Virus record (IMG/VR): IMGVR_UViG_3300036651_001490
Coordinates: 1 to 20,539 of that record
DNA length: 20,539 bases
DNA from: a virus
Reading direction: 5' to 3' (one strand)
Shown: piece by piece, positions 2,861-20,364 of the stretch
Position numbering within the stretch: position 1 is the first letter of the stretch
Layout: each line of letters begins with the position of its first letter
Program-made: the position numbers and the translations under genes
Notes under the pieces: generated by a model
Databases searched by the model: none
The model's input: only the letters and a program-made list of their open reading frames with translations
What the model was told of the DNA's origin: nothing

Positions 2861-3021
2861 GACAGCGCCTCGAGCAGCGTGTCGTGGGCTTCAGCGAGGA
2901 ACATCAATAGATCTTCGGTGTTCCGGGCACCCATGACGCGGGCGATCAGTTCGGCTTCGGTGCGGGCTTTGCCGATGTGGCGGGCCGCGGTGATGACGCT
3001 CTCCCGGTCGATGAGCGTCAT
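2857..3021 (-). CDS. small helical hypothetical protein, 54 aa
   Basis: The sequence begins MTLIDRESVITAARHIGKA and ends in an amphipathic helix (LLMFLAEAHDTLLEALS). Composition is protein-like (balanced charges, Leu/Ala helices) and unlike the Arg/Pro-rich shadow frames. The ATG at 3021 overlaps the preceding stop by 4 nt, and its TGA overlaps the HNH GTG by 4 nt, so it fills exactly the gap between them. I recognise no family. It may be a helical DNA-binding or adaptor protein; there is no evidence beyond fold prediction by eye. Confidence 0.7.
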   Translation of the reverse strand: MTLIDRESVITAARHIGKARTEAELIARVMGARNTEDLLMFLAEAHDTLLEALS

Positions 3022-3302
3022 GCGAGGTCTGCCCGTTCACGCGGCTCGGCGAGCTCGAACGGCACTTCGTCGTCGTCGCGTTCACCGAGGATTCGGTGAA
3101 GGAGCGCCCGGCCTTCCGACGTGATGTGTGTGAACGTCCCCTCGGTTGTCCCGCAGTGCGGGCAGAGGACTTCCCACGCCTTCACCGGGACGCCGTGATC
3201 GGCGCCGATGATCCGACGGTCGGTGTGGTCATGGCGCGAGCAGCGCGGGCAGCCACGATGGCCGTTGAGGTGGTCGTGGTCCTTCGCGTCGATGCGGATC
3301 AT
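3018..3302 (-). CDS. zinc-ribbon protein, 94 aa
   Basis: The N-terminal half carries two knuckles, CPRC (18-21) in a His-rich context and CPHC about 30 residues later (VLCPHCGTTEG), the classic two-knuckle zinc-ribbon spacing. The C-terminal third is acidic (ERDDDEVPFELAEPRER). Zinc ribbons of this kind bind nucleic acid or transcription/replication proteins; no specific partner can be named. The ATG at 3302 lies in the ATGA overlap with the replication gene stop, inside a copy of the TCATCGGACGCCT junction sequence. It is translated directly after the initiator and before the 54-aa gene. Confidence 0.75.
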   Translation of the reverse strand: MIRIDAKDHDHLNGHRGCPRCSRHDHTDRRIIGADHGVPVKAWEVLCPHCGTTEGTFTHITSEGRALLHRILGERDDDEVPFELAEPRERADLA

Positions 3303-3311
3303 CGGACGCCT
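3299..3311 (+). repeat. junction repeat TCATCGGACGCCT, copy 3
   Basis: Identical 13-mer at the initiator / 94-aa zinc-ribbon junction, with the same GVR-stop and overlapping ATG. Confidence 0.85.
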
Positions 3312-4168
3312 CGGATCGCGGCGATGCGGGCGGCGCCTTCGGCCATCGGCAACGCGTCGGGGACGTCGATGGGTTGCCATTCGGCTAGGCCGAACTCGGG
3401 GCCGTCGAGTTCCGTCAGGGGTTCGACGGTGGGGATTTCTGTCCACCGCTCGTGGCGGAGCCAGCGGACTGCGTCCTCGGGGTAGCGGCCGTTCGGGCCT
3501 GTCGATGTGGCGACGTGGGCGGGGAGCGCGGCCATTGCGGCGTCGCGTTTGGCCTGGCTGAGCCGGCGCCAGACGGTCTGTGCGTCCTTCTTCGAGCCTT
3601 TCGACCCGTTGCGTGCCGGGTACTGCCGCCAGAACGGGTCGAAGCGGTCATCGCAGTCGACGGCAGTCGACGAAGCGTTTTCGGTTAGAGGTACCGGAGG
3701 TACCGAAGGGATAGGGATAGGGATAGGGATAAGGGCATCCTGAGGCATATGCGTTTCGCATCCGTTCGCACTGCTCGTCGCATCGTCATCGGATGCGTTC
3801 GCAATGCAAATCGCATCGTCATCGGACTGCGGTGCGGGTACGTCACGTCTGCCCCACCGCGCTTCGGCTGCCTTGCGTCCCGCTTCCGAACGCGACTTCT
3901 GAGGACGGTTCCAATCCGCGTAGTCGTGCACCCGGTAGTCGTCGTCGCCGACGTCTTCCCACAGACCGACCAACACCAGCCGCTCCGCAAGATGCGCCGG
4001 CCGCGGCCGATCCGACAAACGACCAATCTGCGCCTTCGGGATCACCCCGTCGGTGCCGTACCGGCGGCAGTAGCCGAGCCCGCAGACGAACAACCACGCC
4101 GCGTCGCCCCCGGCGCGTGCGACCTTCGGATGGTCGAAGAACCCGTCGTCCAAGTACACCCAGCTCAC
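3299..4168 (-). CDS. phage replication-initiator-like protein, 289 aa
   Basis: Residues 1-90 resemble the winged-helix N-terminal domain of phage replication proteins: WVYLDDGFFDHPKVARAG, then WLFVCGLGYCRRYGTDG, then a predicted helix-turn-helix around RLSDRP. A basic segment (KSRSEAGRKAAEARWG, 91-106) follows. The linker (about 110-175) is acidic and repetitive, with SDDDAICIANA next to SDDDATSSANG and an Ile-Pro repeat at 147-154. The C-terminal domain (176-245, FDPFWRQYPARNG...WLRHERW) matches the 'FW..YP...A...W' region seen in phage primosome and DnaD-like proteins. The role inferred is origin binding and helicase loading. GTG at 4168 has AGGAG upstream and a GTGA overlap. The linker DNA contains iteron-like repeats, described separately. 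Confidence 0.75.
   Translation of the reverse strand: MSWVYLDDGFFDHPKVARAGGDAAWLFVCGLGYCRRYGTDGVIPKAQIGRLSDRPRPAHLAERLVLVGLWEDVGDDDYRVHDYADWNRPQKSRSEAGRKAAEARWGRRDVPAPQSDDDAICIANASDDDATSSANGCETHMPQDALIPIPIPIPSVPPVPLTENASSTAVDCDDRFDPFWRQYPARNGSKGSKKDAQTVWRRLSQAKRDAAMAALPAHVATSTGPNGRYPEDAVRWLRHERWTEIPTVEPLTELDGPEFGLAEWQPIDVPDALPMAEGAARIAAIRGVR
3708..3731 (+). repeat. GGGATA hexamer x4 inside the replication gene
   Basis: Four perfect tandem copies of GGGATA (TATCCC on the coding strand, encoding Ile-Pro repeats), followed by AGGG. The tract lies in the disordered linker of the initiator-like gene, close to the 33-bp repeats. Confidence 0.9.
3764..3829 (+). repeat. 33-bp tandem iteron-like repeat, two copies
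   Basis: Copy 1 is 3764-3796 and copy 2 is 3797-3829. Each starts GTTCGCA, then a variable 7-nt block (with TGC conserved), then an identical 16-mer TCGCATCGTCATCGGA. A degenerate partial copy (TTCGCATCC) precedes at 3755-3763. The coding strand gives the 11-residue repeats SDDDAICIANA and SDDDATSSANG. The position within a replication initiator gene recalls the origin iterons inside lambda O. Confidence 0.85.
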
Positions 4169-4323
4169 TTCGCGCGCTCCTGCTCGAAGCGGGCGACGTC
4201 ACGCAACGCGGCGCCCATGTCCCGGTACCCCTCGGCGATCTTCTCGCCGGTCGCCGCGTCGCGTATGTCCCACTCCCATGTGTATGGGGCCACGTAGTGC
4301 TTCTCGATCGTGTACCGGCTCAT
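4165..4323 (-). CDS. small hypothetical protein, 52 aa
   Basis: The sequence begins MSRYTIEKHYVAPYTWEWDI and continues with a beta-hairpin-like stretch (RDAATGEKIAEGYRDMG) and a C-terminal charged helix (RDVARFEQERAK). It looks like a compact alpha/beta mini-protein with aromatic residues spaced as in beta strands. The ATG at 4323 overlaps the preceding stop by 4 nt and has a GCAGG Shine-Dalgarno. Its stop overlaps the initiator GTG. I recognise no family. Confidence 0.75.
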   Translation of the reverse strand: MSRYTIEKHYVAPYTWEWDIRDAATGEKIAEGYRDMGAALRDVARFEQERAK

Positions 4324-4694
4324 CGGGACCTGCCGTAGACGCCGTGGCCGGCCTGGTCGGCCACGAGTTTCACCAACGACTGCGCCCCGGACAGCTGCCC
4401 GAGGACCAACTCCTTCTTCGCTTGGAACGTCTTCACGTCCGCTCGGGCCAACAGGAGGTCGTTGAGCTCGTTGATCGCCTCGTACTCGGCGAGTTTCTCG
4501 GCGGTGCGTTCAGCGGTCTTGTCTGAGCCCATGCGGCGGCGTTGGAACGCGGCGCCGGACTTGCGTTTGTAGGCGACTTCGGCGGCGGCTTCGGTGTGGA
4601 GCGCGGTGGCGAGGTCGGCGATGAGGGTGTCCATCTGCTGGGTGGCGTGGACGATGACGCGTTCGACGTCATGCGGGGAGACGGGGTCGCTCAC
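4320..4694 (-). CDS. hypothetical coiled-coil protein next to RecT, 124 aa
   Basis: The protein is largely helical and charged. Its first helix (HDVERVIVHATQQMDTLIADLATALH) is followed by a basic patch (AYKRKSGAAFQRRRMGSDKT) and a second long helix (KTAERTAEKLAEYEAINELNDLLLARAD) with coiled-coil character. GTG at 4694 overlaps the RecT stop (GTGA), and its TGA overlaps the 52-aa gene ATG. The position immediately downstream of RecT suggests an accessory recombination or DNA-binding factor, by association only. I know of no enzymatic motif here. Confidence 0.75.
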   Translation of the reverse strand: MSDPVSPHDVERVIVHATQQMDTLIADLATALHTEAAAEVAYKRKSGAAFQRRRMGSDKTAERTAEKLAEYEAINELNDLLLARADVKTFQAKKELVLGQLSGAQSLVKLVADQAGHGVYGRSR

Positions 4695-5782
4695 GAGGTG
4701 CCGCGTGCCGTGTCCATCGCGTCGGCTAGGGGCCCGAGCGCAGTTTTCGATTTGCCGGTGGGTGCTTTCACGCCGAATAGGTCGGCGAGGGCCTGTAACT
4801 GCGGGGCCGAGCAGGTGGCGAGGTAGTCGGCCGAGGCGACGTCGTCGGGGAGGGCTTCCCATGTGTCGCCCGCGTCGTCGCCGGACGGCGCGGGCGGAGA
4901 CGCCGTAACGGCGTCACTGACGCCCGCCGCTGCCTCACGGTCAGCGGCGTCTCCGCCCGTCACCTCTTGGAGTTCGGGCACGTCGATCGCGTCGTCGTAG
5001 TCCCGTTCCTCGTCGAGCGTGTCGACGCTGTAGTCGGTGCGGACCGTCTCGTCCCGGTTGAAGGCTTGGGCCATCTCCGTCGACAGCGGCAGGTATGGGG
5101 CCATCGCCCGGATCACGGTCTTGCGGGCCATCGCGTCGAAGTCGTCGTGCCACGGCCCGGACGGCTTGTCGGGGTTGTACGACTTCGACCGGTCCCGAAT
5201 CCGGGTGATGTCTTCCATCGGCATGACGAGGAAGTAGAAGCCGCCGTCGTGGAAGTGCGCGACGCCGTACGACGCGACGGCTTGGCCGCGGTCCCGTAAC
5301 GTCGGCGTGTGCCGCAAGACCGGGGAGAGGCCGTAGCTGTACTCGAAGTCGTCGTGCTCGAACACGGTGCGCGCTTCGATCGACTTGATGTTTCCTGACC
5401 GGCGGGCCAGCTCGAGGATCCCCTTGTAGCCGATGACGAACTGGGCTTCGTTCCACTTGCGCCACTCGCCGTCGACCTTCGCGTTGCGTGTGAACGGGAC
5501 GAGGTAGGCGTGGCCGAGGGGGCCGAGTTCCAACCCGAGTTGTGCGCACGTCATGAGTGCGCCGAGGAGTGATTCCTGGGTGCACGCGGCGAGTTTCGGG
5601 TTGGTGCGGATCGTCGTCAACGCGAGACGGGCGAGCCGGTCCGGTGTCATGTTCGCCGCGGCCGGCAGGGCGCGTTGCAACTGCGGGGTCTGCTCCTCGA
5701 TGAGTTGCATGATCGTCTTGCGTTTCGGGGCGCCGTCGGGGTTGGCGCGTTCGATCGCTTGGCTCAAGCGTTCAGTGCTCAC
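4691..5782 (-). CDS. recT: RecT-family single-strand annealing protein
   Basis: This 363-residue RecT/Red-beta-type annealase pairs complementary single strands generated by the partner exonuclease. The RecT core spans about residues 22-270. Recognisable blocks are TIMQLIEEQTPQLQRALP; the segment ALTTIRTNPKLAACTQESLLGA; LGLELGPLGHAYLVPF; QFVIGYKGILELARRSG; and the C-terminal AMARKTVIRAMAPYLPLS. After about 275 the chain becomes acidic and Ala/Pro-rich, then ends in a short helical SAP-like segment (YLATCSAPQLQALADLFGV), an unusually long tail for RecT. GTG at 5782 is chosen because it overlaps the preceding stop (GTGA); farther upstream sequence in frame is shadow of the previous two genes. 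One small zinc-ribbon gene separates it from the exonuclease. Confidence 0.95.
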   Translation of the reverse strand: MSTERLSQAIERANPDGAPKRKTIMQLIEEQTPQLQRALPAAANMTPDRLARLALTTIRTNPKLAACTQESLLGALMTCAQLGLELGPLGHAYLVPFTRNAKVDGEWRKWNEAQFVIGYKGILELARRSGNIKSIEARTVFEHDDFEYSYGLSPVLRHTPTLRDRGQAVASYGVAHFHDGGFYFLVMPMEDITRIRDRSKSYNPDKPSGPWHDDFDAMARKTVIRAMAPYLPLSTEMAQAFNRDETVRTDYSVDTLDEERDYDDAIDVPELQEVTGGDAADREAAAGVSDAVTASPPAPSGDDAGDTWEALPDDVASADYLATCSAPQLQALADLFGVKAPTGKSKTALGPLADAMDTARGTS

Positions 5783-7458: not shown

Positions 7459-7848
7459 ATGGGACCGAAAACGACACCAGACCGCACGAGAGGGCTTGAA
7501 GATGTGATCGCATCACGGCTCCTCGGCGACGTCCCCCGCGTCACCAGCACCATCGGACAGCGGATGCGCCGGGCCCGCACAGCGTCCGGCATCGCGCGCC
7601 AGGAAGACATGGCCGACGTGCTACGGGTCACCCGCCAGACGGTGATGAACTGGGAAGGCGACGACCCCCACCCCTCCCGAGCCGTCCTCATCGCGTGGGC
7701 CGTCATCACCGACTGCAACTTCGTGTGGCTCGAAACCGGCGTCGGCGAACCCGCCACACAGAACGACGGGGCGTTTCAATCACTTGAACGATCACCCATT
7801 CGGCGGATGCGTTGCTTCACGACGCGCTCGGAGCTCGGCGTCGCGTGA
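7459..7848 (+). CDS. XRE-family immunity repressor, 129 aa
   Basis: Residues 32-92 form a Cro/CI-type helix-turn-helix: IGQRMRRARTASGI, RQEDMADVLRVTRQTVMNWEGD with the recognition helix at about 57-66, and a closing FVWLETGVGEP. It should bind operators in the divergent region and shut off the early operon. No dimerisation or LexA-type peptidase domain follows. Instead there is a basic, unstructured tail of about 30 residues (99-129) ending RSELGVA, whose last residues resemble small-nonpolar ssrA-like degrons. The ATG at 7459 is preceded by GCAGGA. The stop overlaps the integrase GTG (GTGA). The tail and overlap recall integration-dependent immunity repressors of mycobacteriophages such as BPs. 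Confidence 0.85.
   Translation: MGPKTTPDRTRGLEDVIASRLLGDVPRVTSTIGQRMRRARTASGIARQEDMADVLRVTRQTVMNWEGDDPHPSRAVLIAWAVITDCNFVWLETGVGEPATQNDGAFQSLERSPIRRMRCFTTRSELGVA
7775..7788 (+). repeat. inverted repeat TTCAA-TCAC-TTGAA in repressor tail (candidate att core)
   Basis: Perfect 5-bp arms separated by 4 bp lie in an AT-richer patch of the repressor 3' region, just before the integrase. Tyrosine recombinase core sites have imperfect inverted arms around a short overlap, so this is a candidate crossover site. No bacterial attB is available for comparison, so the assignment is weak. Confidence 0.25.
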
Positions 7849-8807
7849 ACACGCTCGTCGCCCGGAGTGAAATGCCGCAGCATGCGCAGCATTTGCAGAC
7901 ACAACTGACAGGTGCCACGTTGGCTGTGTCTACGACCGGGGGGGTCGACGTGCGTGCGGAAGTGGAACGGTACGTAGCCGAGAAAGTAGCCCTAGGGGAT
8001 TACAGCCCCCAGTCGGCGGTCCAAGTCGCGTCGGTCCTCCGCCGCTTCTCCGTCGGCGTCGGCGACATACACCCCGGCGAACTCACCCGCAGCCACATCA
8101 CCGCCTACCTCGCGTCGCAGACCGGGAACGCACGCACGCAACGGAACCGCCTCTCCGCGATCCGCACGTTCACCGCGTGGTGCCACGCGAACGACATCAT
8201 CGGCAAAGATCCCGCGGCGGCGATGAAATCGACGAAAGTCCCCGTCGGCGAATCCCGGTTCCTCGAGCCGGACGAGGTCACCCTCGTCCTCGCCGAGGCG
8301 AAGTCGCCGCGGGATCGGCTGTTGATCCTGCTGCTGGTCCAGATGGGTTTGCGGCGCGGCGAGGCCGCCGATATCGACATCGAAGACATCGACTTCGCGG
8401 AACGCCTCCTCGCGGTGCACGGCAAAGGGTACCGGGGCGCGGTGTCACGGGTGGTGTCGATCCCGGTGCAGGCGTTCGAAGCGTTGCGGGCGTTCCTCCA
8501 CGCGGAGCCGGTGTTCTCCGGGCCGCTGCTGCGCAACTACCGAGGGGGACGCATCTCCCGCAACAAGGTGTCGCAGATCGTCGCCGCCGCGATGTACGAC
8601 GCCGGGGTGAAGGCCAGCCCGTACGACGGCCGTTCCGCGCACGCGCTCCGGCACACGATGGTTCAGCACCTCGTCGATGCCGGCAAAGAGCTCCGCGACA
8701 TCCAAGCGTTCGCGGGGCATGCGTCGATCCAGACGACCGAGTTGTACGCCCGCCGCAAGATCGCGGTCGACAAGCTCCGCGCTGCGTCCGAGGGCCGCAC
8801 CTACTAG
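7845..8807 (+). CDS. int: tyrosine recombinase (phage integrase)
   Basis: This 320-residue integrase would catalyse attP x attB recombination. An N-terminal SAM-like core-binding domain (about 37-125, EVERYVAEKVALGDYSPQS... to HANDIIGKDP) precedes the catalytic domain. Catalytic residues are all present: Arg170 in MGLRRGE, Lys194 in HGKGYRG, His266 and Arg269 in HALRH, His292 in AGHASIQTT, and nucleophile Tyr301 in LYARR. It looks intact. There is no long arm-binding N-terminal domain, so arm-type sites may be simple. The GTG at 7845 is chosen for its 4-nt overlap with the repressor. ATG at 7872 has a GGAG 4 nt upstream and is a real alternative. The gene should be co-transcribed with the repressor. 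Confidence 0.93.
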   Translation: MNTLVARSEMPQHAQHLQTQLTGATLAVSTTGGVDVRAEVERYVAEKVALGDYSPQSAVQVASVLRRFSVGVGDIHPGELTRSHITAYLASQTGNARTQRNRLSAIRTFTAWCHANDIIGKDPAAAMKSTKVPVGESRFLEPDEVTLVLAEAKSPRDRLLILLLVQMGLRRGEAADIDIEDIDFAERLLAVHGKGYRGAVSRVVSIPVQAFEALRAFLHAEPVFSGPLLRNYRGGRISRNKVSQIVAAAMYDAGVKASPYDGRSAHALRHTMVQHLVDAGKELRDIQAFAGHASIQTTELYARRKIAVDKLRAASEGRTY

Positions 8808-8988: not shown

Positions 8989-9795
8989 CTACGCGCTGCG
9001 GGGCCCGTTGTATGTCGGGTCGTACGCGGGGGCGGGGCCGATGAGGGCGAACGAGTCGATCGTCGCCCGATGCAGCCGGATCGGTGTGCCATCAAGGGCC
9101 GCTTTCGCGAGGCCGGTGTCGCGGAGTTGCGCGAGGGCGTTGCCGTCGCGGACCCATGATTTGATGACGCCGTCGGTGAGGAACACGGCGACGTCGCCGT
9201 CGTCTGCTTGCACGAGTGTCGCCACGTCGTCGTTCTCCTTGGTTTGGGCAGCGAGTCCTTCGCTGTGGGTTTGCACGAGGGCGATGTACCAGTCGATCGG
9301 GAAGTCGGGCCCGGGGTCGGTATGCCCATCGTTCGCCGGCCACGCAATGTTGACTTGGCGGTGGGTGGTGATCCCCCGGGCCCCGCCGCGGAGGTCGGCG
9401 GCGGCGAGGTACTGTTTGGGGATTTTGTACCGGTCGCACCATTCGGCGACGAGCCCGGCGGAGATGGTGAGCATCGCGGTGCCGTAGTCGTCGAGCCATT
9501 CGCCCATTGTTTGTGACGCGTAGCCGGCGTGTTCGATGTGGAGGCCGTTGTGGTTCGCGGACGGGGCGCCGTACGCGATGTCTTGGTCTTGGACGCAGCG
9601 GACAGCGGTGTCGGAGTCGACGCAGATGTGCGCGGAAGCGACACGGGCGCCGGTTTGGAAGATGGTCGCGCAGTCTTCGGCGGCGGTGCCTTTCTCGGGG
9701 TATTCCATGTCGTGGAGGACGACGAGGTCGATTTGGCGGCCGGTGGTCCGGGTGAACCAGCGGGCGGGGACGAAGGGCAGGTCGTCGATCATCAT
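8989..9795 (-). CDS. endolysin: N-acetylmuramoyl-L-alanine amidase
   Basis: Residues 20-172 form an Amidase_2/PGRP-type domain that would cut the lactyl-L-Ala bond of peptidoglycan. The first zinc ligand is H28 in LVVLHDMEYP; GLHIEHAGYA (84-93) is the conserved Glu strand; THRQ (H145) and GHTDPGPDFP (D160) supply the remaining ligands in the usual 'HR...DPGP.FP..W' form. A C-terminal region of about 95 residues (ENDDVATLVQADDGDVAVFLTD...) should be a wall-binding or accessory domain that I do not recognise. The start is the ATG at 9795 in the ATGA overlap with the fibre gene; a second ATG follows at once. There is no signal peptide, so it needs a holin. Confidence 0.9.
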   Translation of the reverse strand: MMIDDLPFVPARWFTRTTGRQIDLVVLHDMEYPEKGTAAEDCATIFQTGARVASAHICVDSDTAVRCVQDQDIAYGAPSANHNGLHIEHAGYASQTMGEWLDDYGTAMLTISAGLVAEWCDRYKIPKQYLAAADLRGGARGITTHRQVNIAWPANDGHTDPGPDFPIDWYIALVQTHSEGLAAQTKENDDVATLVQADDGDVAVFLTDGVIKSWVRDGNALAQLRDTGLAKAALDGTPIRLHRATIDSFALIGPAPAYDPTYNGPRSA

Positions 9796-10663: not shown

Positions 10664-11476
10664 TCAGGTTTTGATGAACACGTTGGCGACCCCGAACGGG
10701 GGCATGTTGTTGTGCGCCGCACCGCCGCCAGCCGAGCCGGTCGCGATACCGGTGGCGGTGTTGCCGGTGAGTACGGCCATATTGTTCGCACCGGCGGCAC
10801 CGCCGGTCGTCGAGGTCGTGTCTTGGGTACCGTGCGCGTGGCCCGGCATCTCGGTCGACGTGAGGAGGTGGGTTTCTTCGCCGCCGGTAGTGCCAGTCGA
10901 CCGGATGGTCAACCCCGGCCCGGTACCGGCGCCGACGATGACACGCCCCCGGTAGTCGGGGACGTTGAACGTCGTCGACCCGTCACCGACACCGAACACG
11001 GTCGAGATCGCCGCGAACAACGTCGCGTACGTTGTCCGCGAAACCGCCGAACCGTCACACACCAACCACCCGGACGAAGGCGACGTCTTAGCCGTGATCT
11101 TCAAGTCGCCGGCCTCGAACTGCTGCGCCACCTCGAGCTTTGCCTGGGTGACGTTCGCGTCCGCCAACTTCGCGGTGGTGATCCCGGCGTCTTTGACGCG
11201 CAACCACCCGCCGCCAACTTCGATCGTCACACCATCGGCAGCGGTCGCGGCGAAGTCGGCGCCGGTGATGGTCCCGTCGAGGATGTTGGCCGATTCGACC
11301 GCGTTGATCGCGAGTTTCACATGGGTAACCGCGCCGTCCGCGAGGTCCGACGTGGCGATCGGGTTGGCTTTCTTCCGGTACTGGGCGTGGTCGTCGCGGG
11401 ACGTGTCGTCGCGGTGCTGATACAACGCCGACTGGTCGCCCTGCGCCGCCGCCGCCGGGGTCCAATCCGTTGCCAT
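10664..11476 (-). CDS. tail fibre with phage tail collar domain, 270 aa
   Basis: Residues 42-115 are pseudo-repeats (DLADGAVTHVKLAINAVESANILDGTITGADF and DAGITTAKLADANVTQAKL) typical of trimeric fibre shafts. Residues 121-183 match the Tail_Collar domain: GDLKITAKTSPSSGWLVCDG, then STTFNVPDYRGRVIVGAG. A Gly/Thr-rich loop region with EMPGHAH and the C-terminal HNNMPPFGVANVFIKT complete the standard collar-fibre form. The N-terminus (ALYQHRDDTSRDDHAQYRK) probably anchors it to the tail. The ATG at 11476 shares one base with the stop of the previous gene (TGATG), with GGTGG upstream. The inferred role is receptor binding at the tail tip, alongside the C1q-like fibre. Confidence 0.88.
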   Translation of the reverse strand: MATDWTPAAAAQGDQSALYQHRDDTSRDDHAQYRKKANPIATSDLADGAVTHVKLAINAVESANILDGTITGADFAATAADGVTIEVGGGWLRVKDAGITTAKLADANVTQAKLEVAQQFEAGDLKITAKTSPSSGWLVCDGSAVSRTTYATLFAAISTVFGVGDGSTTFNVPDYRGRVIVGAGTGPGLTIRSTGTTGGEETHLLTSTEMPGHAHGTQDTTSTTGGAAGANNMAVLTGNTATGIATGSAGGGAAHNNMPPFGVANVFIKT

Positions 11477-13275
11477 CAGAACACCACCTTCAATTGGCAG
11501 ATCATCGTCCCGTTCCACGCCTTCTGCGTCTTGCACGGCGTCACCGGCCGCCACGCGAAATCGTCGACCTTCACCGTGTACGACAAGGCGCCGATCTGGA
11601 ACGTCGTGATCGTCTGGTCGGCGGCGAGGGAACGGATCTCGGCGATGACGGCGTTGACGTCCATCGGTTCCTGCGACCCCGCGATCCCCGCCGTGATCTG
11701 TTCGGTCAACACGAGCGGCACGGTGATCAACTCGGTGCGCACCGGCGCCGGGTAGGCGTACAGCGTCGCCGCGCGCACCGTCGGCCCGGTCGTCGCATCC
11801 AGGCCCGACCGGTTCAGGGTGAGGCGGTGTTCGTGGTAGGTGCCTTTGCGGGTTTCGCCGGTGATGTTGATCTGTGTGAACGCCCCGCCTTGCGTGGCGA
11901 CAGCCATCGTGACCGTCCCGGGGTCGGACCAGTCGGGGCGGCCGCCGATCACCGTTTTGTTCTCGCCGATGTTGAAGTTGATGACCCCCGAATCCAACGT
12001 CCCCGACGCCACGAGATTCGCCGTGGGCTGGTAGATGCCGACGGCGGTGACACCGACCGCGAGGGTCGACCCGAGGAACTGCACACCGTCCACGACTCCC
12101 GAACCGGTGACCATCAGATCGGACGCGTAGGCGGGGACGTACGGCTCGGTGAAGTTCTGCAAATCCATGCGGCCGACCCCGGTCGACGCCGCGTCGTAGT
12201 TCGACCAGCCGAACCACACGTACTGCCCGCGGCCGCAGAACGCCCCGACCGTCACCCCCAAATCAACCACCGGGCCGTACGTCAGATCCCCGGACCCGGC
12301 TTGCGTCGCGACCCGGAACCCACGCGACGTGCCGATCACGATCACACCGGAGTACCCGTAGATCGCGGCGACGGTTTCGCCGTCGGGAAGGCGCGCGGCG
12401 ATGACCGGGACGTCGAGGCCGGTGCCGTCGGACTTCACGGCAAGGCGGTAGACGATGCCCTTGTCGCCGATGTTTCCCGCCGCGTACGCGTGACTGGTCC
12501 CCTCCGCGAACGCCACCCAACTGAACGCTGTGTCAAGGTTCGCCGGGGTGACGACTACCGCCGTCCCGGTCGAGATGTCCCGCAGCGCGGAACCGGACGC
12601 GGACAGGAGCCGCCCCTTCACGAACCCGACCAGCGACGTCGTCGACGCTTCGAACGACGTGAACGCCGTCCCGGTCGCCTTGTACACCCCCGACGCCCCG
12701 AACGCGGCGTAGATCGTCCCACCGGTCGACGCCAACGCTGTGACCGCCGCCGCCGGGGTCCCGGTGCACGCCGTCTTCGTCGTCAGGTCGGTCTGGTAGA
12801 CGGTTTGCAGGTCGGTGTAATACAGTTTCGTCCCCGTAGATACGATCTTCGCGGTGGTCCCCGTGTTCGCCACGGTGTGCGCCACCGCGGTGTCCGCGAG
12901 CAACGTGAGTTGGCTGCGCGTCCACGGGTTCACCCCTTTACTTGACCGGAACCGGTGACCGTCGGAGTCCTTCAAGTCACGGTGGATCTGCCCGGCACCC
13001 AAGTGCCACGACGACGTCGACCGCCGCCACGCAGCCTCCGGGTTCAACGTCTGCTCCCCCGGCTCCGCCGAGTCGACGGTCTGCCCCTTCGTCATCGTGA
13101 CCGTCTTGTGGGTGAACTTGTCGATGTAGTAGCCGCCCTCGAGGTCGAGGACGTACCCGCGGCCCGCCAACGCGACGTCGAACTTCCCCGGGACCGTCGA
13201 CGTGTTCGCGGCGACGCCGGAGTAGAACGACTCGGTGAACGTCCCGCCGATCGCGAGGGTGTACGGGACGGTCAT
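11476..13275 (-). CDS. large beta-rich virion protein (minor tail-like), 599 aa
   Basis: The sequence is almost wholly beta strands and turns. The first 120 residues hold a tyrosine-rich sheet (GRGYVLDLEGGYYIDKFTH). From about 130 to 450 there are repeated blocks of roughly 40-50 residues with patterns such as GTKLYYTDLQTVYQT, GGTIYAAFGASGVYKATG, GKGRLLSASGSALRDIS and SGVIVIGTSRGFRVAT, which read like beta-propeller blades. The last 150 residues are another sheet domain ending MICQLKVVF. I recognise no named family. Position between the adaptor-like protein and the fibres suggests a tail or tail-tip protein. The ATG at 13275 overlaps the preceding stop (ATGA). An in-frame extension to 13296 overlaps the neighbour more and is not needed. 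Confidence 0.75.
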   Translation of the reverse strand: MTVPYTLAIGGTFTESFYSGVAANTSTVPGKFDVALAGRGYVLDLEGGYYIDKFTHKTVTMTKGQTVDSAEPGEQTLNPEAAWRRSTSSWHLGAGQIHRDLKDSDGHRFRSSKGVNPWTRSQLTLLADTAVAHTVANTGTTAKIVSTGTKLYYTDLQTVYQTDLTTKTACTGTPAAAVTALASTGGTIYAAFGASGVYKATGTAFTSFEASTTSLVGFVKGRLLSASGSALRDISTGTAVVVTPANLDTAFSWVAFAEGTSHAYAAGNIGDKGIVYRLAVKSDGTGLDVPVIAARLPDGETVAAIYGYSGVIVIGTSRGFRVATQAGSGDLTYGPVVDLGVTVGAFCGRGQYVWFGWSNYDAASTGVGRMDLQNFTEPYVPAYASDLMVTGSGVVDGVQFLGSTLAVGVTAVGIYQPTANLVASGTLDSGVINFNIGENKTVIGGRPDWSDPGTVTMAVATQGGAFTQINITGETRKGTYHEHRLTLNRSGLDATTGPTVRAATLYAYPAPVRTELITVPLVLTEQITAGIAGSQEPMDVNAVIAEIRSLAADQTITTFQIGALSYTVKVDDFAWRPVTPCKTQKAWNGTMICQLKVVF

Positions 13276-14165
13276 CGCGGGTTCCTCTGCGGCCAATCCA
13301 CCAGCAACCGTCGCCGTTCAGCGGCCAGGCGGGCTTGGTAGTTCCGGATGATCGGCGTGATCGACTGCGCCTCCGCCCCGGTGGGGACTTCGGCGGCGCG
13401 GCGGGTGTTGCCTTGCGCTTCGTGGAAGTTCCGTCCGAGTTCGCGGCCGACGGTCAACCCGATCCCTGTCCCCATCGCCAGCACGTCGATCGTCGAGCCG
13501 GGGATGCCGGTGACGGTTTCGACGACCTGCGTCACGTCGCTGGTGCCGAGAAGCGTGAACGGCGCCTTGTAGTCGATGCGGATCGTCCGGCCTTCTACCA
13601 TGCCGGACCCGCGGAAGAAGATCCCGGTGCCCGACGGGAACACGGTGGCGTCCTCGTCGCGGCGGACCGTCCATCCCGACACGTCGACCCATTCGCGCAT
13701 CGCATAGTCCTGGGCCTGCACCGAATACACGGCCCCCGGCGTCGCGGCGAAGTCGTAGCCGATGTACGCCGACGTCCATGTGATTGATTTGGTGGTCATC
13801 TGGAACAGGCCGTGGCCGTAGAGGTTGTCGAGCTCGGAGTTGATGGCACGGAGGATCTGTGCGTCGGTCCACCGGGCGGCGACTCTGACGATCTCTGTCG
13901 TGGTGTGTGACACGGCGACGGTGCCGTCGACGCCGCGGTCGACGGACGCAGCTTTCGGGGTGGCGTCGGTCGACCATACGTAGATGTCTTCGAGGCCGAT
14001 CGACAGCCGTGTGTTCGGTTGCATGGCGCCGAGGTCGTAGGTGAATGTGAGGGCCGTCTGTACGTTGTCGATCGCGGCGGAGAGTTTGTTGCGGGGTTCG
14101 ACGACGCCTTGGCCGAGGTAGTCGCGGCGGATCCGGTCTATGAGTTGCTGGACCGTGGTCGTCAC
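13272..14165 (-). CDS. virion adaptor/neck-like protein, 297 aa
   Basis: The N-terminus is helical (VQQLIDRIRRDYLG). A beta module (about 20-95) ends in the motif RGVDGTVAVSH, followed by a helix with RWTDAQILRAINSELDNLYG, then a beta-sandwich region (WTSAYIGYDF, AREWVD-type strands, RTIRIDYKAPF). The C-terminus is a long basic helix (IIRNYQARLAAERRRLLVDWPQR). The 'RG..GT.A..H' element with a following 'I..aiN..l' helix occurs in phage head-tail adaptor or neck-type proteins, so I call it adaptor-like. That family call is from memory of pattern only. GTG at 14165 overlaps the preceding stop (GTGA). Confidence 0.65.
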   Translation of the reverse strand: MTTTVQQLIDRIRRDYLGQGVVEPRNKLSAAIDNVQTALTFTYDLGAMQPNTRLSIGLEDIYVWSTDATPKAASVDRGVDGTVAVSHTTTEIVRVAARWTDAQILRAINSELDNLYGHGLFQMTTKSITWTSAYIGYDFAATPGAVYSVQAQDYAMREWVDVSGWTVRRDEDATVFPSGTGIFFRGSGMVEGRTIRIDYKAPFTLLGTSDVTQVVETVTGIPGSTIDVLAMGTGIGLTVGRELGRNFHEAQGNTRRAAEVPTGAEAQSITPIIRNYQARLAAERRRLLVDWPQRNPR

Positions 14166-14482: not shown

Positions 14483-15256
14483 CTACGGGTAGCCGGCGAC
14501 GGTGTAGCCGGCGGATGTGAGGGCAGCTGCGGTGGTTTGGTCGATGGTGTAGGTGTGGCCGCCGAGGTACACCTCGGTGGCGGTGGCGAGGTCGTCGGTG
14601 GTGGGGGCTTCGTGGTTGACGTAGACGCCGCCGGTTTTGAGGACGGTGACGCCGCGGGTGAGTTCTTCGTTGAAGCGGACGAGGCGGCGGGCGACTCGTT
14701 CGACCCCCTGCCGGTGATACTCACGGTTGATGACGTCCGCGGCGCCTTGCGTGGTCGGCGGGGTGAAGGCGTATACCGGGGCCGCGACCAGACCTGCCGC
14801 GGCCGCGGCCGCGTTAGCGAGGACCGCGGCGCCGGCCGCGTTCGCACCCACCCCGACGACGGCACCCGACCGGAAGTCGCGGAGCGTGATCGCCGCGGTC
14901 GCGAACGTCCCCGCCGTCCCCGCCGCCGCCGCGGTGAGATTGCCGAGGACGACCGCAGCGGTGAACGACACGCCCACCCCGACCGTCGCCGCCGACACCG
15001 CATCCGCGAGGACGACGACCCCGGCCGCGTTGACGACCGTCGCCGCCGACTCCGCGAGGAGCCACGTCCCGTCCTCCAACAGAAGGTCGTCACCGTCTTG
15101 GACCAACACCGCGTCGGACACGACCGACTCGACGAGTAGCCGGTAGCCGTCCTCCAACCACATCGACGCCTGGTCCTCTTGGGACAGGGCGTCCGTCGCG
15201 ACGCCGTCCTCGAGGAGGAGCATCCCGCCGGCTTCGAGCGCGAGGCGATCAGGCAA
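14483..15256 (-). CDS. virion protein with LLLEDG repeats and paralogous C-terminal domain, 257 aa
   Basis: Residues 1-70 contain repeated acidic-hydrophobic elements (GGMLLLEDG, MWLEDGYRLLVES, LLLEDGTWLLAES). Residues 75-160 are Ala/Val/Gly-rich low-complexity repeats. Residues 161-257 form a distinct domain (AFTPP, INREYHRQGVERVARRL, GGVYVNHEAPTTDDLATATEVY). That domain is clearly related to the C-terminus of the gene at 19477-20364. The role is probably a tail or decoration protein; I do not recognise a family. The TTG at 15256 gives an 8-nt overlap with the tailspike gene and has AGGGG upstream. The ATG at residue 12 (15223) is a possible later start. Confidence 0.7.
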   Translation of the reverse strand: MPDRLALEAGGMLLLEDGVATDALSQEDQASMWLEDGYRLLVESVVSDAVLVQDGDDLLLEDGTWLLAESAATVVNAAGVVVLADAVSAATVGVGVSFTAAVVLGNLTAAAAGTAGTFATAAITLRDFRSGAVVGVGANAAGAAVLANAAAAAAGLVAAPVYAFTPPTTQGAADVINREYHRQGVERVARRLVRFNEELTRGVTVLKTGGVYVNHEAPTTDDLATATEVYLGGHTYTIDQTTAAALTSAGYTVAGYP

Positions 15257-17921
15257 GCTTCAACGCCCCTCTCGTGCGTGTCCCCGAGGTGGCGACGAGG
15301 GTGGTCTGGTCGAACACGGCGAGTTCCTGTAGGACGGTCCGTTGGCCGACGGTGACGCCCCACAGGGTTTGGTGGGCGAGCGCGGTTTCGTATCCGCCGT
15401 ATGACGGCGCCCGGAGCACGAGGCGGACTTTGGAGAACGACGTCCGCACGAACGACGCGACATGCACCCACCGGTCATCCCAATACGTTTCGAGGGTGCA
15501 CCGTTCGAGCGAGGTGAACGGGAACGTCAGCGACGCGGGCGGGGTCTGTGTGTACCGGTTTGTCCACGCCGCCCCGTCCCAGGTGTCGAGGTCGAAGTCG
15601 ACGGGGGTGGAGTGGCCTTGCCACGGTGAGAAGCCCCATAGGACGATCCGGGTCGCGGCGATGTTCGCGCCGAGGTCGACGGTGATCGTCTGCGGGTAGG
15701 TGGCGGCGGTGTCGGAGTACGGGGCGGTCGAATCGGCGAGGTTCGACGACGAGTAGCCGTACTCGTTTTCGAGGGTGCCGGACACGATCCGGGCGATGTT
15801 CGCCGCGGCCCCGGTCGTCGACGCCGTCGCGGTGGTGGACAGGATCGGCGCGGATAGCGGTTTGTTGACGGTGACGGTGACGTTCGTCGGGATCCGCACC
15901 CACGTCGGGAATTCCATGACGGGGAGGGTCGCGGCGCCCGCGTTGACGGTGGCAGTGAACGTGTTCCCCCACGAGTCCGAGCACACCAGGCTCGACGCGC
16001 CCGCCACCGTCAACGTCAACGCGGGTAGACCGGACGCGGCGCCGATCACGCCGAGTGTCTTGGTGCCGTCCGACGGGTGATTCCAGAGGCCCCCGGCGTA
16101 GATTTTGTTGCCGTAGTTCCCGAAGTCGACGCCGCCGTCGAACGCGGCGAGGGTCCGGTTGCCGATCTCCGCGACCATCGTGCGGATGGGGAGCGCTTGC
16201 GGTCCGGGGCCGACGCCGGAGATCCAGAACATGGGGAACTGGTCGAACCCGCCGTCGACGTCGTACCAGTAGTGGTTGTTCTCCACCGGGATGCCGTAGA
16301 GCTCTTGCACGAAGATTTGCAACGCGGTCCACCGGGCCGCGTACCGCGGGTAGGTGAGCCCGTCGTAGGAGAACCCGAAGCCCTGCTCGGTCTGGTAGAT
16401 GGGCAGGTTCGGGTAGCCGGCAATCGCGAGGACGTTGCGCAGCGACGACATCGTCGAGCGTGCCAGTTGCAGGTCGCCGTTGGAGCAGTTGTAGCCGTGG
16501 ACGGAGACGCCGTCGAGGTAGGCGCCGCCGCCGGCCGCGAAGAAGTCGGTGAGCCACTGTGTGCCCGACGAGTTGAACGACACGGGGTTCGGGCCGAGGA
16601 CTTTGGCGTTGGTGTCGGCGGCTTTGACCGCGTTGTAGAACGCCTGCTGTTCGGTGACGAACGTCGCCGCGGCGGTGCCTTGCGGTTCGTTGCGCGGTTC
16701 CCACGCCGTGACCTGGCCCTTGAGGTAGTTGACGGTCGCGGTGACATTCGTCGGGGTGGCGGTGCCGTTGGGGAAGGCGCCGATCTGGCGGCGCGGCCGC
16801 GACGGCCACGCCAAGTCGGCCCACTCGGCCTTGAGGGCTGTTGCGGCTGCCAACTCCGCCGTGTACGCCCCGGCGGGGGCGGCGGACCCGGAACCGAGGT
16901 TGAATCGTTGCGGACCGAGCGCCATCACCGCCCGGGCGTGCTCATCGACGAACGACACCCCCGCGGTGGCGTACTCGGCGCCCTTGTTCGCCGGGAAGTT
17001 CACGTCGCCGCGCACCCGGTAGAAGGTGCAGTCACCGTACGCGGTGCCCCACTGGCCGTCGCCATGGTCGGGCCCGGTGAGATACACCCGGTACCAGCCG
17101 TACGGGCCGCGGCCGGAGCGTTGCGTCAACGCCGAGTCGGCGACGTCGACCGTGTCGGAGGTGACCGACCCGGAGGTGACGATGGCGCCGTCCCAGTTCC
17201 GCACCGAATACGCAGTCGCGGCCGGGTTCGACGCTGCCGCCATCGACCACGACGAGAACCGGGCCGCCGCGTCCCCGGAGACGTACAGGCCGTGCGTGTT
17301 CCCTGTCGCGTTCGCGGCGGTGGTGAACGTCCCCTCGACGCTGCCGTTGAGGTACACGGTGTAGTTGTTCCCGACGCATGTGACGCGGAGGAGGTAGTAG
17401 GTGCCGGCGGTGAGGACGGTGGACCCGGTGAACGGGAACGTCGGCGTCGACGCCTGGATCGTCGAGGCGCCGACACGGAGTGACGTGCCGTCGAGGAAGA
17501 CGTTGTTGTGGTCGTTCCCTGATGTGCGCAACGTGAGCCCGACCTGTCCGGTCGACGAGGCGCCGAGTTTGACGCGGGTGGTGATGTCGAAATCGGTGCG
17601 GCCCATGCCGCCGCCGTTCCCGTTGGCTTGCAGGTAGATCGCACCGGTCCCCCCCGGGCAGTACCCCTCGCCGTTGAGCGTCCCGAACACGGACTGGAAC
17701 TGCGACCACCGGAACCCCGGCACCACCAACGCCGGTGACGCGTTCACGAGGGAACTCGTTGAGTCCCCACGCGAGAAGTCCTCAACCACGGGGCCGCCGC
17801 TGTACGCCAAACGAAGCCGCACATTCGATGAGACACGGTCGGCGTCGAACACGAAACCCGAACGCGTCAACGTCGACGGGATCACCGCATCCGCCGGCCG
17901 GGTGTAGGAATGAAAACCCAT
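15249..17921 (-). CDS. tailspike with clan GH-A-like glycosidase domain, 890 aa
   Basis: Four regions can be seen. Residues 1-45 are a short virion-anchor-like start. Residues 46-230 are a ConA/LamG-like sheet (DHNNVFLDGTSLRVG, YYLLRVTCVGNNYTVYLNG). Residues about 300-625 resemble a clan GH-A TIM barrel: VTAWEPRNEPQG has N411-E412, the expected acid/base on strand 4; DGVSVHGYN has H475; PIYQTEQGFG has E512, the expected nucleophile on strand 7. Residues 708-870 look like an F5/8 type C (galactose-binding) domain: NEYGYSSSNLADSTAP, then PQTITVDLG. GH39 or GH5-like enzymes are the nearest match I can name. It probably cuts a host-surface polysaccharide. ATG at 17921 lies 1 nt after the preceding stop, without a good Shine-Dalgarno. 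Confidence 0.85.
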   Translation of the reverse strand: MGFHSYTRPADAVIPSTLTRSGFVFDADRVSSNVRLRLAYSGGPVVEDFSRGDSTSSLVNASPALVVPGFRWSQFQSVFGTLNGEGYCPGGTGAIYLQANGNGGGMGRTDFDITTRVKLGASSTGQVGLTLRTSGNDHNNVFLDGTSLRVGASTIQASTPTFPFTGSTVLTAGTYYLLRVTCVGNNYTVYLNGSVEGTFTTAANATGNTHGLYVSGDAAARFSSWSMAAASNPAATAYSVRNWDGAIVTSGSVTSDTVDVADSALTQRSGRGPYGWYRVYLTGPDHGDGQWGTAYGDCTFYRVRGDVNFPANKGAEYATAGVSFVDEHARAVMALGPQRFNLGSGSAAPAGAYTAELAAATALKAEWADLAWPSRPRRQIGAFPNGTATPTNVTATVNYLKGQVTAWEPRNEPQGTAAATFVTEQQAFYNAVKAADTNAKVLGPNPVSFNSSGTQWLTDFFAAGGGAYLDGVSVHGYNCSNGDLQLARSTMSSLRNVLAIAGYPNLPIYQTEQGFGFSYDGLTYPRYAARWTALQIFVQELYGIPVENNHYWYDVDGGFDQFPMFWISGVGPGPQALPIRTMVAEIGNRTLAAFDGGVDFGNYGNKIYAGGLWNHPSDGTKTLGVIGAASGLPALTLTVAGASSLVCSDSWGNTFTATVNAGAATLPVMEFPTWVRIPTNVTVTVNKPLSAPILSTTATASTTGAAANIARIVSGTLENEYGYSSSNLADSTAPYSDTAATYPQTITVDLGANIAATRIVLWGFSPWQGHSTPVDFDLDTWDGAAWTNRYTQTPPASLTFPFTSLERCTLETYWDDRWVHVASFVRTSFSKVRLVLRAPSYGGYETALAHQTLWGVTVGQRTVLQELAVFDQTTLVATSGTRTRGALKLA

Positions 17922-17922
17922 G

Positions 17923-18561
17923 TCAGGTAGTCATCAGGAAGTTGTCGAACGTGGTGCCGCCGTCGTCGTAGTTCGCCGTCTCGAAGTACACGGTCGGCCC
18001 GAACTGCGTGCCAGTCAGGCCCGCGGCGACGGTCGTCGACAGGATCTGCGTCCCGTTGATCGACGCGGTGACCGTGGTGCCACTGAGGACCGACTTCAAC
18101 GTGTACGTCGACCCGTTCACGAACCCTTGCGAGTCGGCGTGTGTCAGCGACGTGAACCCGCCGGTGAGCATCTGCTGGATTTCGAGCCGGTTGAGGCCCG
18201 ACACCTTGTAGAGGATGACGCGGATGATGTTGCTCTCGTCGGTGCGGCGCAGCATGAGCCCGCCGCACGCCCGGTCCGTGGTCGCTGACAGGGTGATGTC
18301 GACGGAAACGGTGCCGTCGCCGACGGCGGGGTCGAGCCACGCGGCGTTGTGGCTGAGGTTCGACAGGCCGGACGCGATGTACGCCTTGTTCGAACTGATC
18401 CCGTAGGTCGCGAAGTTCTTCGTCCACGTCCCGCCGACGTCCGCGGTTCCGAGCGACACCGCGGAGTTGGCGCGTGTGAACGAGTCCGATAGGAGCGTCG
18501 TCGGCCCCGCCCCGGAGTTTCCGGCGGCGGCCATGAGCATCGAACGCGACACGATCGGCAT
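17923..18561 (-). CDS. ConA/LamG-like domain virion protein, 212 aa
   Basis: After a short N-terminus the protein reads as one beta-sandwich of the LamG/concanavalin type. It opens SDSFTRANSAVSLGTADVGG, then has strands such as GTVSVDITLSA, GGLMLRRTDESNIIRVILY, RLEIQQMLTGG, STYTLKSVLSGTTVTASINGT and a closing FDNFLMTT. The order of elements matches the N-terminal 46-230 segment of the adjacent tailspike. It probably binds carbohydrate on the host surface or helps attach the tailspike. It may be the result of duplication of that domain. The ATG at 18561 is 1 nt after the preceding stop in the arrangement TGACATG, identical to the tailspike start. No catalytic residues are evident. Confidence 0.78.
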   Translation of the reverse strand: MPIVSRSMLMAAAGNSGAGPTTLLSDSFTRANSAVSLGTADVGGTWTKNFATYGISSNKAYIASGLSNLSHNAAWLDPAVGDGTVSVDITLSATTDRACGGLMLRRTDESNIIRVILYKVSGLNRLEIQQMLTGGFTSLTHADSQGFVNGSTYTLKSVLSGTTVTASINGTQILSTTVAAGLTGTQFGPTVYFETANYDDGGTTFDNFLMTT

Positions 18562-18562
18562 G

Positions 18563-19066
18563 TCAGCGGACCCCGATACCGGCGGTGAACCCGAGCCAAG
18601 TGGTGCCGTTGTCGACGGTGAGGAACGTGAACACGTCGACCCGCGACGCGACCGTCGAAATCGTCGGCGCTGTCCCTGCCGGCCACTTCACTGCCGCCGG
18701 CCACGCGATCGTCCGCGACCCGGTCGCGTCCTGGCGGAGGATCAGCGTGAACGACGACGCCCGCCCCGACACCGAACCGGAGAACGTGAGGGTGCAGTTC
18801 GCGGTCAACGTGAGGTCTTCGACGGTGCCGTTCGCGACGTTGACCGTCGCCGCCGCACCCGACGCCGCGTTCGTCACCACCGTCTCCCCTTCGGAGAGAA
18901 CGGATTGGCGGGCCATTCCCTTCGCAAGTTCGGCGGCGGTCATCGACTTCGTTGTGCCCGACGCCGACATCGTCGTGTCGGAGATGTCGGTGAACGGGAA
19001 CTCGTCGCCGGTCGCGAGGTTCGCGCCGGCGAGAGCTGTGAGGTCGGTGATCTTTTTGTCGCTCAT
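18563..19066 (-). CDS. small tail fibre-type protein, 167 aa
   Basis: Residues 1-50 (KKITDLTALAGANLATGDEFPFTDISD) form the short 'DLTA...DEFPFTDISD' attachment segment common at the start of phage fibre and structural proteins. Residues 70-167 are a beta domain (LTLTANCTLTFSGSVSG, SSFTLILRQDATGSRTIAWP, RVDVFTFLTVDNGTTWLG) frequently found in tail fibre proteins. The function is probably structural. ATG at 19066 overlaps the preceding stop (ATGA). The gene sits in a run of small beta-rich genes before the tailspike. I cannot name an exact family. Confidence 0.75.
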   Translation of the reverse strand: MSDKKITDLTALAGANLATGDEFPFTDISDTTMSASGTTKSMTAAELAKGMARQSVLSEGETVVTNAASGAAATVNVANGTVEDLTLTANCTLTFSGSVSGRASSFTLILRQDATGSRTIAWPAAVKWPAGTAPTISTVASRVDVFTFLTVDNGTTWLGFTAGIGVR

Positions 19067-19467
19067 GCGTTACCCGCCGTGATCGTGAACGAACTGCACG
19101 ACACAGGGCCACCGGTGACGATGGATGTCGTGTTGAGGTTGATGTCCGCGCCGGAGGTGCCGACGGTGAAGTCGCCGATGACGGTGGTGCCGTCCGCCTT
19201 GTACATGCGGGCGAACGTCGCGGTCCCCGTCGCGGCCGCGGACGAGTCCTGTGTGATGGCGTTGAGTGTCAGGACACCGCCGGAGGACGCGGGCGCGAAG
19301 GTGGCGTTGAGGGTCAGCGTCGATAGGAGCGTGTTTCCCGAGAGTGCCGTGTTGGCGTCGGCGGGTTGGGTACCGGAGTAGATCTTGAGGAGGCCGGAGG
19401 CGCCGACGCGGGTGGTGATCGCGTCGAGCTCGGCGTTGCGGGTCGCGGTGGCGAGTTTCGGTGCCAT
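19063..19467 (-). CDS. small virion structural protein, 134 aa
   Basis: A helical N-terminus (RNAELDAITTRVGASGLLKIYSG) leads into beta strands: LLSTLTLNATFAPASSGGVLTLNAI, ATFARMYKADGTTVIGDFTVG and SCSSFTITAGNA. The 'LKIYSGTQPA...L.TLTLNATF' pattern is one I associate with minor tail or virion proteins of phages, without a defined role. ATG at 19467 has AAGGA at good spacing, and the stop TGA of the previous gene overlaps that Shine-Dalgarno. Its stop overlaps the next gene's ATG. Confidence 0.75.
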   Translation of the reverse strand: MAPKLATATRNAELDAITTRVGASGLLKIYSGTQPADANTALSGNTLLSTLTLNATFAPASSGGVLTLNAITQDSSAAATGTATFARMYKADGTTVIGDFTVGTSGADINLNTTSIVTGGPVSCSSFTITAGNA

Positions 19468-19476
19468 GTCAGTCCT

Positions 19477-20364
19477 TCATCGGTATTCGTCGGTGACGGC
19501 GAAGCCGGCTGCGACGAGTTGGGTCTTGGTGTTGTCGTCGACGTCGGTGGAGCGGCCGCCTGGGTAGATTTCGGTTGCGGTGGCGAGGTCGTCGGTGGTG
19601 GGGCCTTCGATGGTGATGTAGGCGCCGTTGACGCGGAGGACGGTCGCGGCGCGTGGCGCTGCCCGGTAGTGGGCGGCGAGGCGTCGGCCTTGGCGGCTGA
19701 GGCGCTGTTCGATGGCTTCTTGGGCGGACACGGCGGCTTTGTCGTTTGACGCGACGAGCGGCGGGGTGAAGACGTGGGCGAGGATCGCGGCGTGTCCGTT
19801 GGCGGCGGCGATGAGACTGTCGAGGGTGACCGCGGCGGTGCCGGTCACGGTGGACAGCGAGAATGTGCCGGTGGCGTTGGCGGTGACTCCGGCCAACGTG
19901 ACCGTGGCGGCGGCGTTGGCGCCGACGCCGACTGACGCGGCGGAGGTGGCGTTGCCGAGGACAGGCGCCGCGGTGCCGGTTTCGCCGATCTTCCCCGCCG
20001 CAACCGCAGTCGCGGCGGCGAGGGTCACCGCAGACGTGCCAGTCACAGCGACGATGCCGGTCGCTGCCGCCGTGATTCCGGCCAAGGTGACCGCGGCGGT
20101 GGCGTTGAGCGTGACGGTGCCGGTAGCTGTCGCCGTCGCGGCTGCCAGCGACACGGCAGCGGTCCCGGTGACCGCGACGACGCCTGTGGCCGATGCCGTC
20201 GCGTTGGCGAGGGTCGACGCCGCAGTGCCCTTCACTCCCAGCGTCCCGACCCCCGACGCCGTCACCCCAGCGAGGGTCACCGCCGCGCTACCGGTCACCA
20301 CCGCGGGGAGCGGCTGCTGGCTGAGGTGCGCCCTGATCGGGAACGAACGACCGAAACGGGCCAT
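19477..20364 (-). CDS. Ala/Thr-repeat virion protein with paralogous C-terminal domain, 295 aa
   Basis: Residues 22-190 are about eight tandem copies of a 20-21 residue repeat with the consensus VTGTAAVTLAxATAxATG, expected to form short beta strands in a stacked or fibrous array. Residues 197-295 (VFTPPLV, EAIEQRLSRQGRRLAAHYR, GAYITIEGPTTDDLATATEIYPGG) match the last 97 residues of the gene at 14483-15256. Together the two genes form a small paralogous family around the tailspike gene. Probable tail or capsid decoration protein. ATG at 20364 directly abuts the TAG of the previous gene with no spacer. Confidence 0.75.
   Translation of the reverse strand: MARFGRSFPIRAHLSQQPLPAVVTGSAAVTLAGVTASGVGTLGVKGTAASTLANATASATGVVAVTGTAAVSLAAATATATGTVTLNATAAVTLAGITAAATGIVAVTGTSAVTLAAATAVAAGKIGETGTAAPVLGNATSAASVGVGANAAATVTLAGVTANATGTFSLSTVTGTAAVTLDSLIAAANGHAAILAHVFTPPLVASNDKAAVSAQEAIEQRLSRQGRRLAAHYRAAPRAATVLRVNGAYITIEGPTTDDLATATEIYPGGRSTDVDDNTKTQLVAAGFAVTDEYR
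19797..20301 (-). repeat. about eight 60-63 bp coding repeats
   Basis: These encode the repeat array (consensus VTGTAAVTLAxATAxATG). Copies have diverged at DNA level, indicating old duplications held by protein-level selection; copy number could vary between related phages. Confidence 0.8.

Follow-up and report, generated by a model that had tools for sequence, protein, structure and literature searches.

Does the phage represented by this locus carry a barrel-type glycosidase on its particle? The DNA analysed here, IMG/VR virus record IMGVR_UViG_3300036651_001490, is referred to as the window (the whole stretch, 20,539 bases, G+C 67%) and is probably a fragment of a phage genome. A sequence-only reading had placed a tailspike at positions 15249-17921, with a clan GH-A-like glycosidase between two carbohydrate-binding-type domains. 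Most phage capsule-cutting enzymes are beta-helices; the barrel-shaped type is one that bacteria secrete. We consider it fairly probable that the 890-amino-acid (890-aa) protein encoded at these positions is a virion-attached glycan depolymerase. The gene, its parts and the two proposed catalytic codons are located as follows.

15249..17921, minus strand: 890-aa gene, proposed virion depolymerase (tailspike/adhesin); open reading frame (ORF) with translation, ATG start, third-position G+C (GC3) 0.90
17235..17786, minus strand: LamG-like domain, residues 46-229, tentative; Laminin_G_3 (LamG_3), E 0.0088, 16.6 bits, cut-off 27.6
17025..17234, minus strand: Ig-like beta domain, residues 230-299; alignment with the cellular relatives L003, L004 and L006
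16131..17024, minus strand: predicted (beta/alpha)8 glycosidase barrel, residues 300-597; profiles, tblastn, half-barrel model, Protein Data Bank (PDB) fold matches
16686..16688, minus strand: codon of E412, proposed acid/base (NEP); aligns with PslG Glu165
16386..16388, minus strand: codon of E512, proposed nucleophile (TEQG); aligns with PslG Glu276, invariant in alignments A2-A7
15852..16130, minus strand: predicted C-terminal beta-sandwich of the glycosidase, residues 598-690; blastp homology extent and model strands
15252..15851, minus strand: F5/8C-like galactose-binding domain, residues 691-890, tentative; PF22633 (F5_F8_type_C_2), E 0.00083, 20.4 bits, cut-off 27.8

The 890-aa ORF fills the proposed range exactly, on the minus strand, which had been left unmentioned. 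G+C at the three codon positions (0.58/0.55/0.90) indicates that it is coding, as does its tight packing with its neighbours (upstream gene 1 bp away, downstream gene overlapping by 8 bp). About 45 N-terminal residues are followed in order by the LamG-like, Ig-like, barrel, beta-sandwich and F5/8C-like parts. The Ig-like domain and the beta-sandwich had been overlooked, and the flanks of carbohydrate-binding type proved weak: LamG_3 and F5_F8_type_C_2, scored on isolated segments with Pfam, both stay under their cut-offs. Residues 1-229 and 691-890 have no relatives among phages at E <= 0.1. No beta-helix family matched the protein in Pfam at E <= 1 and PHROGs matched no family whatever, which by these two collections leaves it outside the right-handed beta-helix tailspikes; an NCBIfam search likewise gave no match.

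That residues ~300-690 form a diverged clan GH-A (beta/alpha)8 glycosidase with a C-terminal beta-sandwich is a well supported prediction. When the whole protein or the barrel was used directly as query against phages, IMG/VR and PDB, nothing was returned but two chance matches (E 0.45-0.47). Residues 300-700 were searched by tblastn against plasmids and matched Caballeronia and Paraburkholderia genes (best E 8e-6). A collection representing 84,980 species by a single genome each was then scanned with the barrel by an alignment-based method; 116 of the 252 pattern matches obtained proved to encode relatives (best E 1e-13). Eighty of these 116 stretches were kept, mostly from Paraburkholderia, Burkholderia and Caballeronia, together with two from Streptomyces and one from an Oscillospiraceae metagenome-assembled genome. 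The pooled loci yielded 86 ORFs with blastp E <= 1e-3 to the window protein. Identity to the relatives is mostly 22-29%, and in most of them blastp similarity extends to residues 675-687, spanning barrel and beta-sandwich.

Profiles built from relatives only scored the window protein at 73.6 bits (13 relatives; E 1.9e-21), 63.1 bits (L024, L040 and L048) and 47.0 bits (9 Paraburkholderia-type relatives). Controls (2000 shuffled sequences, the protein in reverse and 142 further frames of the window) reached at most 7.7, 9.8 and 9.5 bits, respectively. A profile of the window barrel with L024, L040 and L048 retrieved 5jvk (GH39; E 1.8e-31), PslG (1.5e-7) and GH39 xylosidases from PDB; profiles of this kind include relatives, and the window protein alone matches no PDB entry. 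Since the relatives in the profiles had first been picked for matching the window, this retrieval of GH39 structures is the more independent support. With relatives-only profiles far above the shuffle controls and GH39 structures retrieved first, the glycosidase assignment of the sequence-only reading was borne out.

The residue numbers proposed for the catalytic pair agree with the translation (E412 in NEP, 411-413; E512 in TEQG, 511-514). By sequence alignment, the protein has the clan GH-A arrangement, with N-E closing beta-4 and a nucleophile Glu closing beta-7. The profile alignment pairs NEP and TE with residues 139 and 250 of the PslG chain (counted from the printed alignment), which an offset of 26 converts to Glu165 and Glu276. 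In PslG, Glu165 is described as the general acid-base and Glu276 as the nucleophile, the latter caught covalently bound in the crystal (PMC11912335). E412, E512 and the beta-6 residues D470, H475 and Y477 are invariant in 14/14 rows of alignment A7, which includes 12 relatives from the 86 ORFs (near-duplicates dropped at 88% identity) and the phage contig L105; the rows were chosen so that both catalytic Glu align, and this count is consequently no independent evidence. E512 is invariant in every untuned alignment. E412 is invariant in untuned A5 (4/4), but variable in A3, A4 and A6.

In the AlphaFold model of residues 292-690, block means of the predicted local distance difference test (pLDDT) were ~60-92 for residues 392-511, 57-77 for 632-690 and <50 elsewhere. 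Helices and strands take turns in the modelled part (beta-5 440-443, beta-6 471-475, beta-7 508-512, and with low confidence beta-8 546-549); the whole-protein model shows low-confidence strands in the Ig-like region (236-242, 247-253, 275-282, 294-302). As far as it is confident (~392-512), the model agrees with the barrel proposed by the sequence-only reading: beta-7 closes with E512, the beta-4 ahead of E412 is weakly modelled, and the two residues have PslG Glu165 and Glu276 as their counterparts in the alignment. Foldseek of the partial model against PDB gave 5jvk as best match (E 1.3e-9), with GH39 xylosidases and heparanases among those that followed; glycosidases made up 50/50 matches listed, at low query TM-scores (0.30-0.39). 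VIA-align gave Z up to 14.2, with solely glycosidases among the 50 matches listed. The enzymes retrieved by fold and by profile are all (beta/alpha)8 barrels. Among predicted viral proteins, 13/576 fold matches were at E <= 0.001, the top two being annotated 'Glycoside hydrolase, family 5' from uncultured Caudovirales (E 1.9e-12 and 6.3e-12). These fold matches are only partly independent, because GH39-like relatives went into building the model.

Several results weigh against a depolymerase of this type. No phage record resembled the whole protein or its barrel in the direct searches, and the GH39 model PF01229 does not match protein or barrel at E <= 1. Most Paraburkholderia relatives have WEP instead of NEP, and with these relatives the aligner can put E408 in place of E412. 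Mean pLDDT was 42.5 for the whole protein (23 rows) and 50.8 for residues 292-690 (14 rows), and the first half of the barrel is without a confident AlphaFold model (<50).

The closest solved relatives are GH39 enzymes, 5jvk, PslG and xylosidases leading the searches with profiles that include relatives. PF01229 matches 6/14 members of A4 at E <= 0.01, and L024 passes its cut-off. Pfam Glyco_hydro_cc (PF11790), which we take to be GH128, scored 19.7 bits on the whole protein, 21.4 on residues 300-700 and 21.0 on residues 230-690 (cut-off 21 bits), a marginal match covering profile positions 94-170 of 237. Because PF01229 fails on the window protein, 'GH39-like' appears a fair label, and membership of GH39 itself is not claimed. 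The GH39 structures (5jvk of Bacteroides cellulosilyticus, PslG, beta-xylosidases) have NEP on beta-4, TE on beta-7 and a barrel with C-terminal beta-sandwich, as is predicted for the window protein; they are cellular enzymes, whereas the window protein adds LamG-like and F5/8C-like parts and is not matched by the GH39 Pfam model.

The bacterial relatives from Paraburkholderia/Caballeronia, Streptomyces and Oscillospiraceae (L003-L086) run, where aligned, from barrel to beta-sandwich as the window protein does, and in L003, L004 and L006 an Ig-like domain precedes the barrel as in the window protein. They differ in being apparently secreted and in having mostly WEP rather than NEP, and no phage setting was seen for any of them. 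By eye, several show secretion- or lipoprotein-like starts, and the 890-aa protein is without a hydrophobic secretion-type N-terminus. In Trinickia symbiotica, GH39-like secreted-type genes stand in tandem (L083:616-2790 and 2957-5017). Recent uptake from Actinobacteria was also considered and is unsupported, because only 1 of 396 actinobacterial genomes scanned was positive at E <= 1e-6 and that one was already the starting genome.

The position of the protein on the particle was judged from the genes around it.

17923..18561, minus strand: 212-aa gene upstream of the 890-aa gene; tblastn E 4e-5 to 1e-3 in 5 records, weak phrog_17388 minor tail protein match
18563..19066, minus strand: tail fibre protein; phrog_9017, E 4e-25
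19063..19467, minus strand: virion structural protein; phrog_3758, E 1.6e-34
14483..15256, minus strand: 257-aa repeat-rich gene downstream with a phrog_8987 C-terminal domain; phrog_8987 match, direct repeats
11476..14165, minus strand: two conserved genes, phrog_7578 and phrog_11667, anchoring podophage synteny; E 5e-51 and 4e-47
10664..11506, minus strand: tail collar protein; PF07484, E 6e-20; phrog_9116 tail protein, E 3e-33
8989..9795, minus strand: endolysin, N-acetylmuramoyl-L-alanine amidase; Amidase_2, E 6e-17; phrog_12609, E 3e-38
7812-8807, plus strand: phage integrase, flanked by the YqaJ and amidase genes; Phage_integrase, E 7e-25

Four of the 5 records related to the 212-aa gene are Gordonia phages, and the matches include minor tail proteins. 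A duplication linking this gene to the N-terminal LamG-like part was rejected (E 0.054). Phage records with a match to the phrog_11667 protein number 31, Streptomyces phages accounting for 29 (Abafar, H25, is among the matches), and 17 IMG/VR loci match it too. In the 12 of these 17 for which ORFs upstream of phrog_7578 were listed, the slot is variable; eight chosen proteins, one from L105, were examined and included tail fibres in L102 (collagen-like) and L099 and glycosyltransferases in L089 and L095, with no match for the 450-aa slot gene of L088. The 'tailspike' label agrees with the synteny, the tail-type neighbours and the slot contents, and is retained as a proposed role. The host is probably an actinomycete. 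The window phage is probably temperate, because an integrase, RecT and YqaJ are encoded; in this it differs from Abafar, which is described as virulent and of podoviral morphotype (PMC11536984).

Two features of the surroundings were recorded in addition. The genes at 19477-20364 and 14483-15256 (minus strand), which lie around the tail fibre and spike genes, have a phrog_8987 C-terminal domain in common (E values of 4e-13 and 1e-9 between them); the former carries repeated Ala/Thr/Gly-rich units and the latter similar, weaker repeats. In related phages, glycosyltransferase genes (L089:3-1253, L095:2182-3264) lie directly upstream of the phrog_7578 gene.

GH-A barrels were also found on other phage contigs. 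L114 (IMGVR_UViG_3300036376_000001, 41 kb) encodes a terminase, a portal, small genes, a beta-helix protein (PF13229, E 8.6e-13), a GH-A protein of 529 aa with motifs NEI and TEFG, and a virion-type protein. Its GH-A protein matches the window protein by blastp at E 1e-5 to 6e-6 (6-sequence database) and by tblastn at E 4e-5. The beta-helix and GH-A proteins (L114:5194-9374) start alike, with MFSPRGLGSGVAIFTGG and MMFTPRALGRGVALFTGG; because the N-termini of these adjacent spikes are nearly alike, they suggest a common short swappable anchor. L114 resembles the window in having a GH-A barrel gene in a tail-type setting, and differs in the length of the protein, in the short N-terminal segment common with the neighbouring spike and in that no LamG family was matched. 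On L105, a 4 kb contig, a partial GH-A barrel (NEG, TETG) lies within an open-ended 861-aa ORF (L105:2-2587) with a weak BACON domain; its long C-terminal region is tail-protein-like by eye and gave weak unknown-function matches in PHROGs.

In the proposed mechanism, the N-terminal LamG-like and C-terminal F5/8C-like modules would probably grip host glycan and may aid attachment to the particle. If the enzyme works as retaining GH39 enzymes do, the glycosidic oxygen would receive its proton from E412, and the covalent glycosyl intermediate would form on E512. Cutting extracellular or wall polysaccharide of the host would let the phage reach the membrane. The gene, its homology, the conservation of both Glu and the genomic context were established here; activity and the retaining mechanism, like the virion location, oligomeric state, substrate and host, are what we infer.

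Three other explanations were weighed. The protein could be an enzyme that is no part of the virion, produced late and set free by lysis so as to clear matrix for progeny or liberate sugars. Paraburkholderia-type relatives with such an appearance occur on three IMG/VR viral contigs (L087:6933-8987, L111:6387-8972, L112:6423-9026; one contig is 524 kb), where they stand alone among genes unrecognised as tail genes and have secretion- or lipoprotein-like N-termini by eye. The window protein, in contrast, is without a hydrophobic N-terminus, sits between tail-type genes and has LamG-like and F5/8C-like additions instead of a secretion signal, and we regard this explanation as unlikely. It is quite unlikely that the barrel is catalytically dead and serves glycan binding only, as a receptor-binding protein: strong divergence (see identities above) and glycan-binding-looking flanks would suit such a role, but E412, E512 and D470/H475/Y477 are invariant across the selected A7 rows, and E512 is so in the untuned alignments as well.

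A virion wall hydrolase would act where the DNA enters, on cell-wall glycan rather than on capsule or exopolysaccharide. Virion glycoside hydrolases with cell-wall activity exist, as described for Bacillus phage Gp255 (PMC4870245), and the likely host group is thick-walled. The nearest structures, however, act on xylosides, glucosides or Psl and not on peptidoglycan, and the phage already encodes an amidase endolysin; we regard this explanation as very unlikely. The virion-attached glycan depolymerase is the reading we prefer.

The kind of enzyme is already known, and the claimed rarity is supported: in DepoScope, TIM barrels account for 10/984 fold matches among phage depolymerase candidates (PMC11326577). 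TIM-barrel virion depolymerases are uncommon rather than startling. Among Acinetobacter tail fibre/spike proteins, 4/313 are reported with a TIM barrel, 4/4 from phages with reported depolymerase activity (PMC11823257). Compared by description, these are phage tail proteins containing a (beta/alpha)8 barrel, as is proposed for the window protein, and differ in their Gram-negative hosts and in that the domain is called transglycosidase (PMC11823257). The megatron protein of RcGTA has a peripheral TIM-barrel domain whose function is given as unknown in the preprint (PMC13420450). Gp255 of Bacillus jumbo phage BpSp is reported as an active glycoside hydrolase shown in the virion; likened by description, it differs as a separate protein interacting with the baseplate (PMC4870245). 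Literature joining GH39, phage and depolymerase, judged by title and start of abstract, held nothing on a phage virion GH39 enzyme. The literature searched held no precedent for a barrel of GH39-like type, for this order of domains or for the actinophage-like context.

Proteins like the 890-aa one would escape DepoScope-type prediction, because TIM-barrel depolymerases are described as omitted from the training of the predictor (PMC11326577). Barrels in tail-type genes of two more phage contigs (L114, L105) suggest that the class is undercounted in environmental phages. It is possible, if doubtful, that the barrel founds a phage lineage of its own among GH39-like enzymes, taken up repeatedly as virion depolymerases (in the window phage, L114 and L105) and specific for actinomycete surface glycans, a specificity absent from characterised depolymerases. 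To our knowledge, few phage depolymerases have been characterised for actinomycetes; if active, the protein would be a retaining glycosidase for an actinomycete surface glycan.

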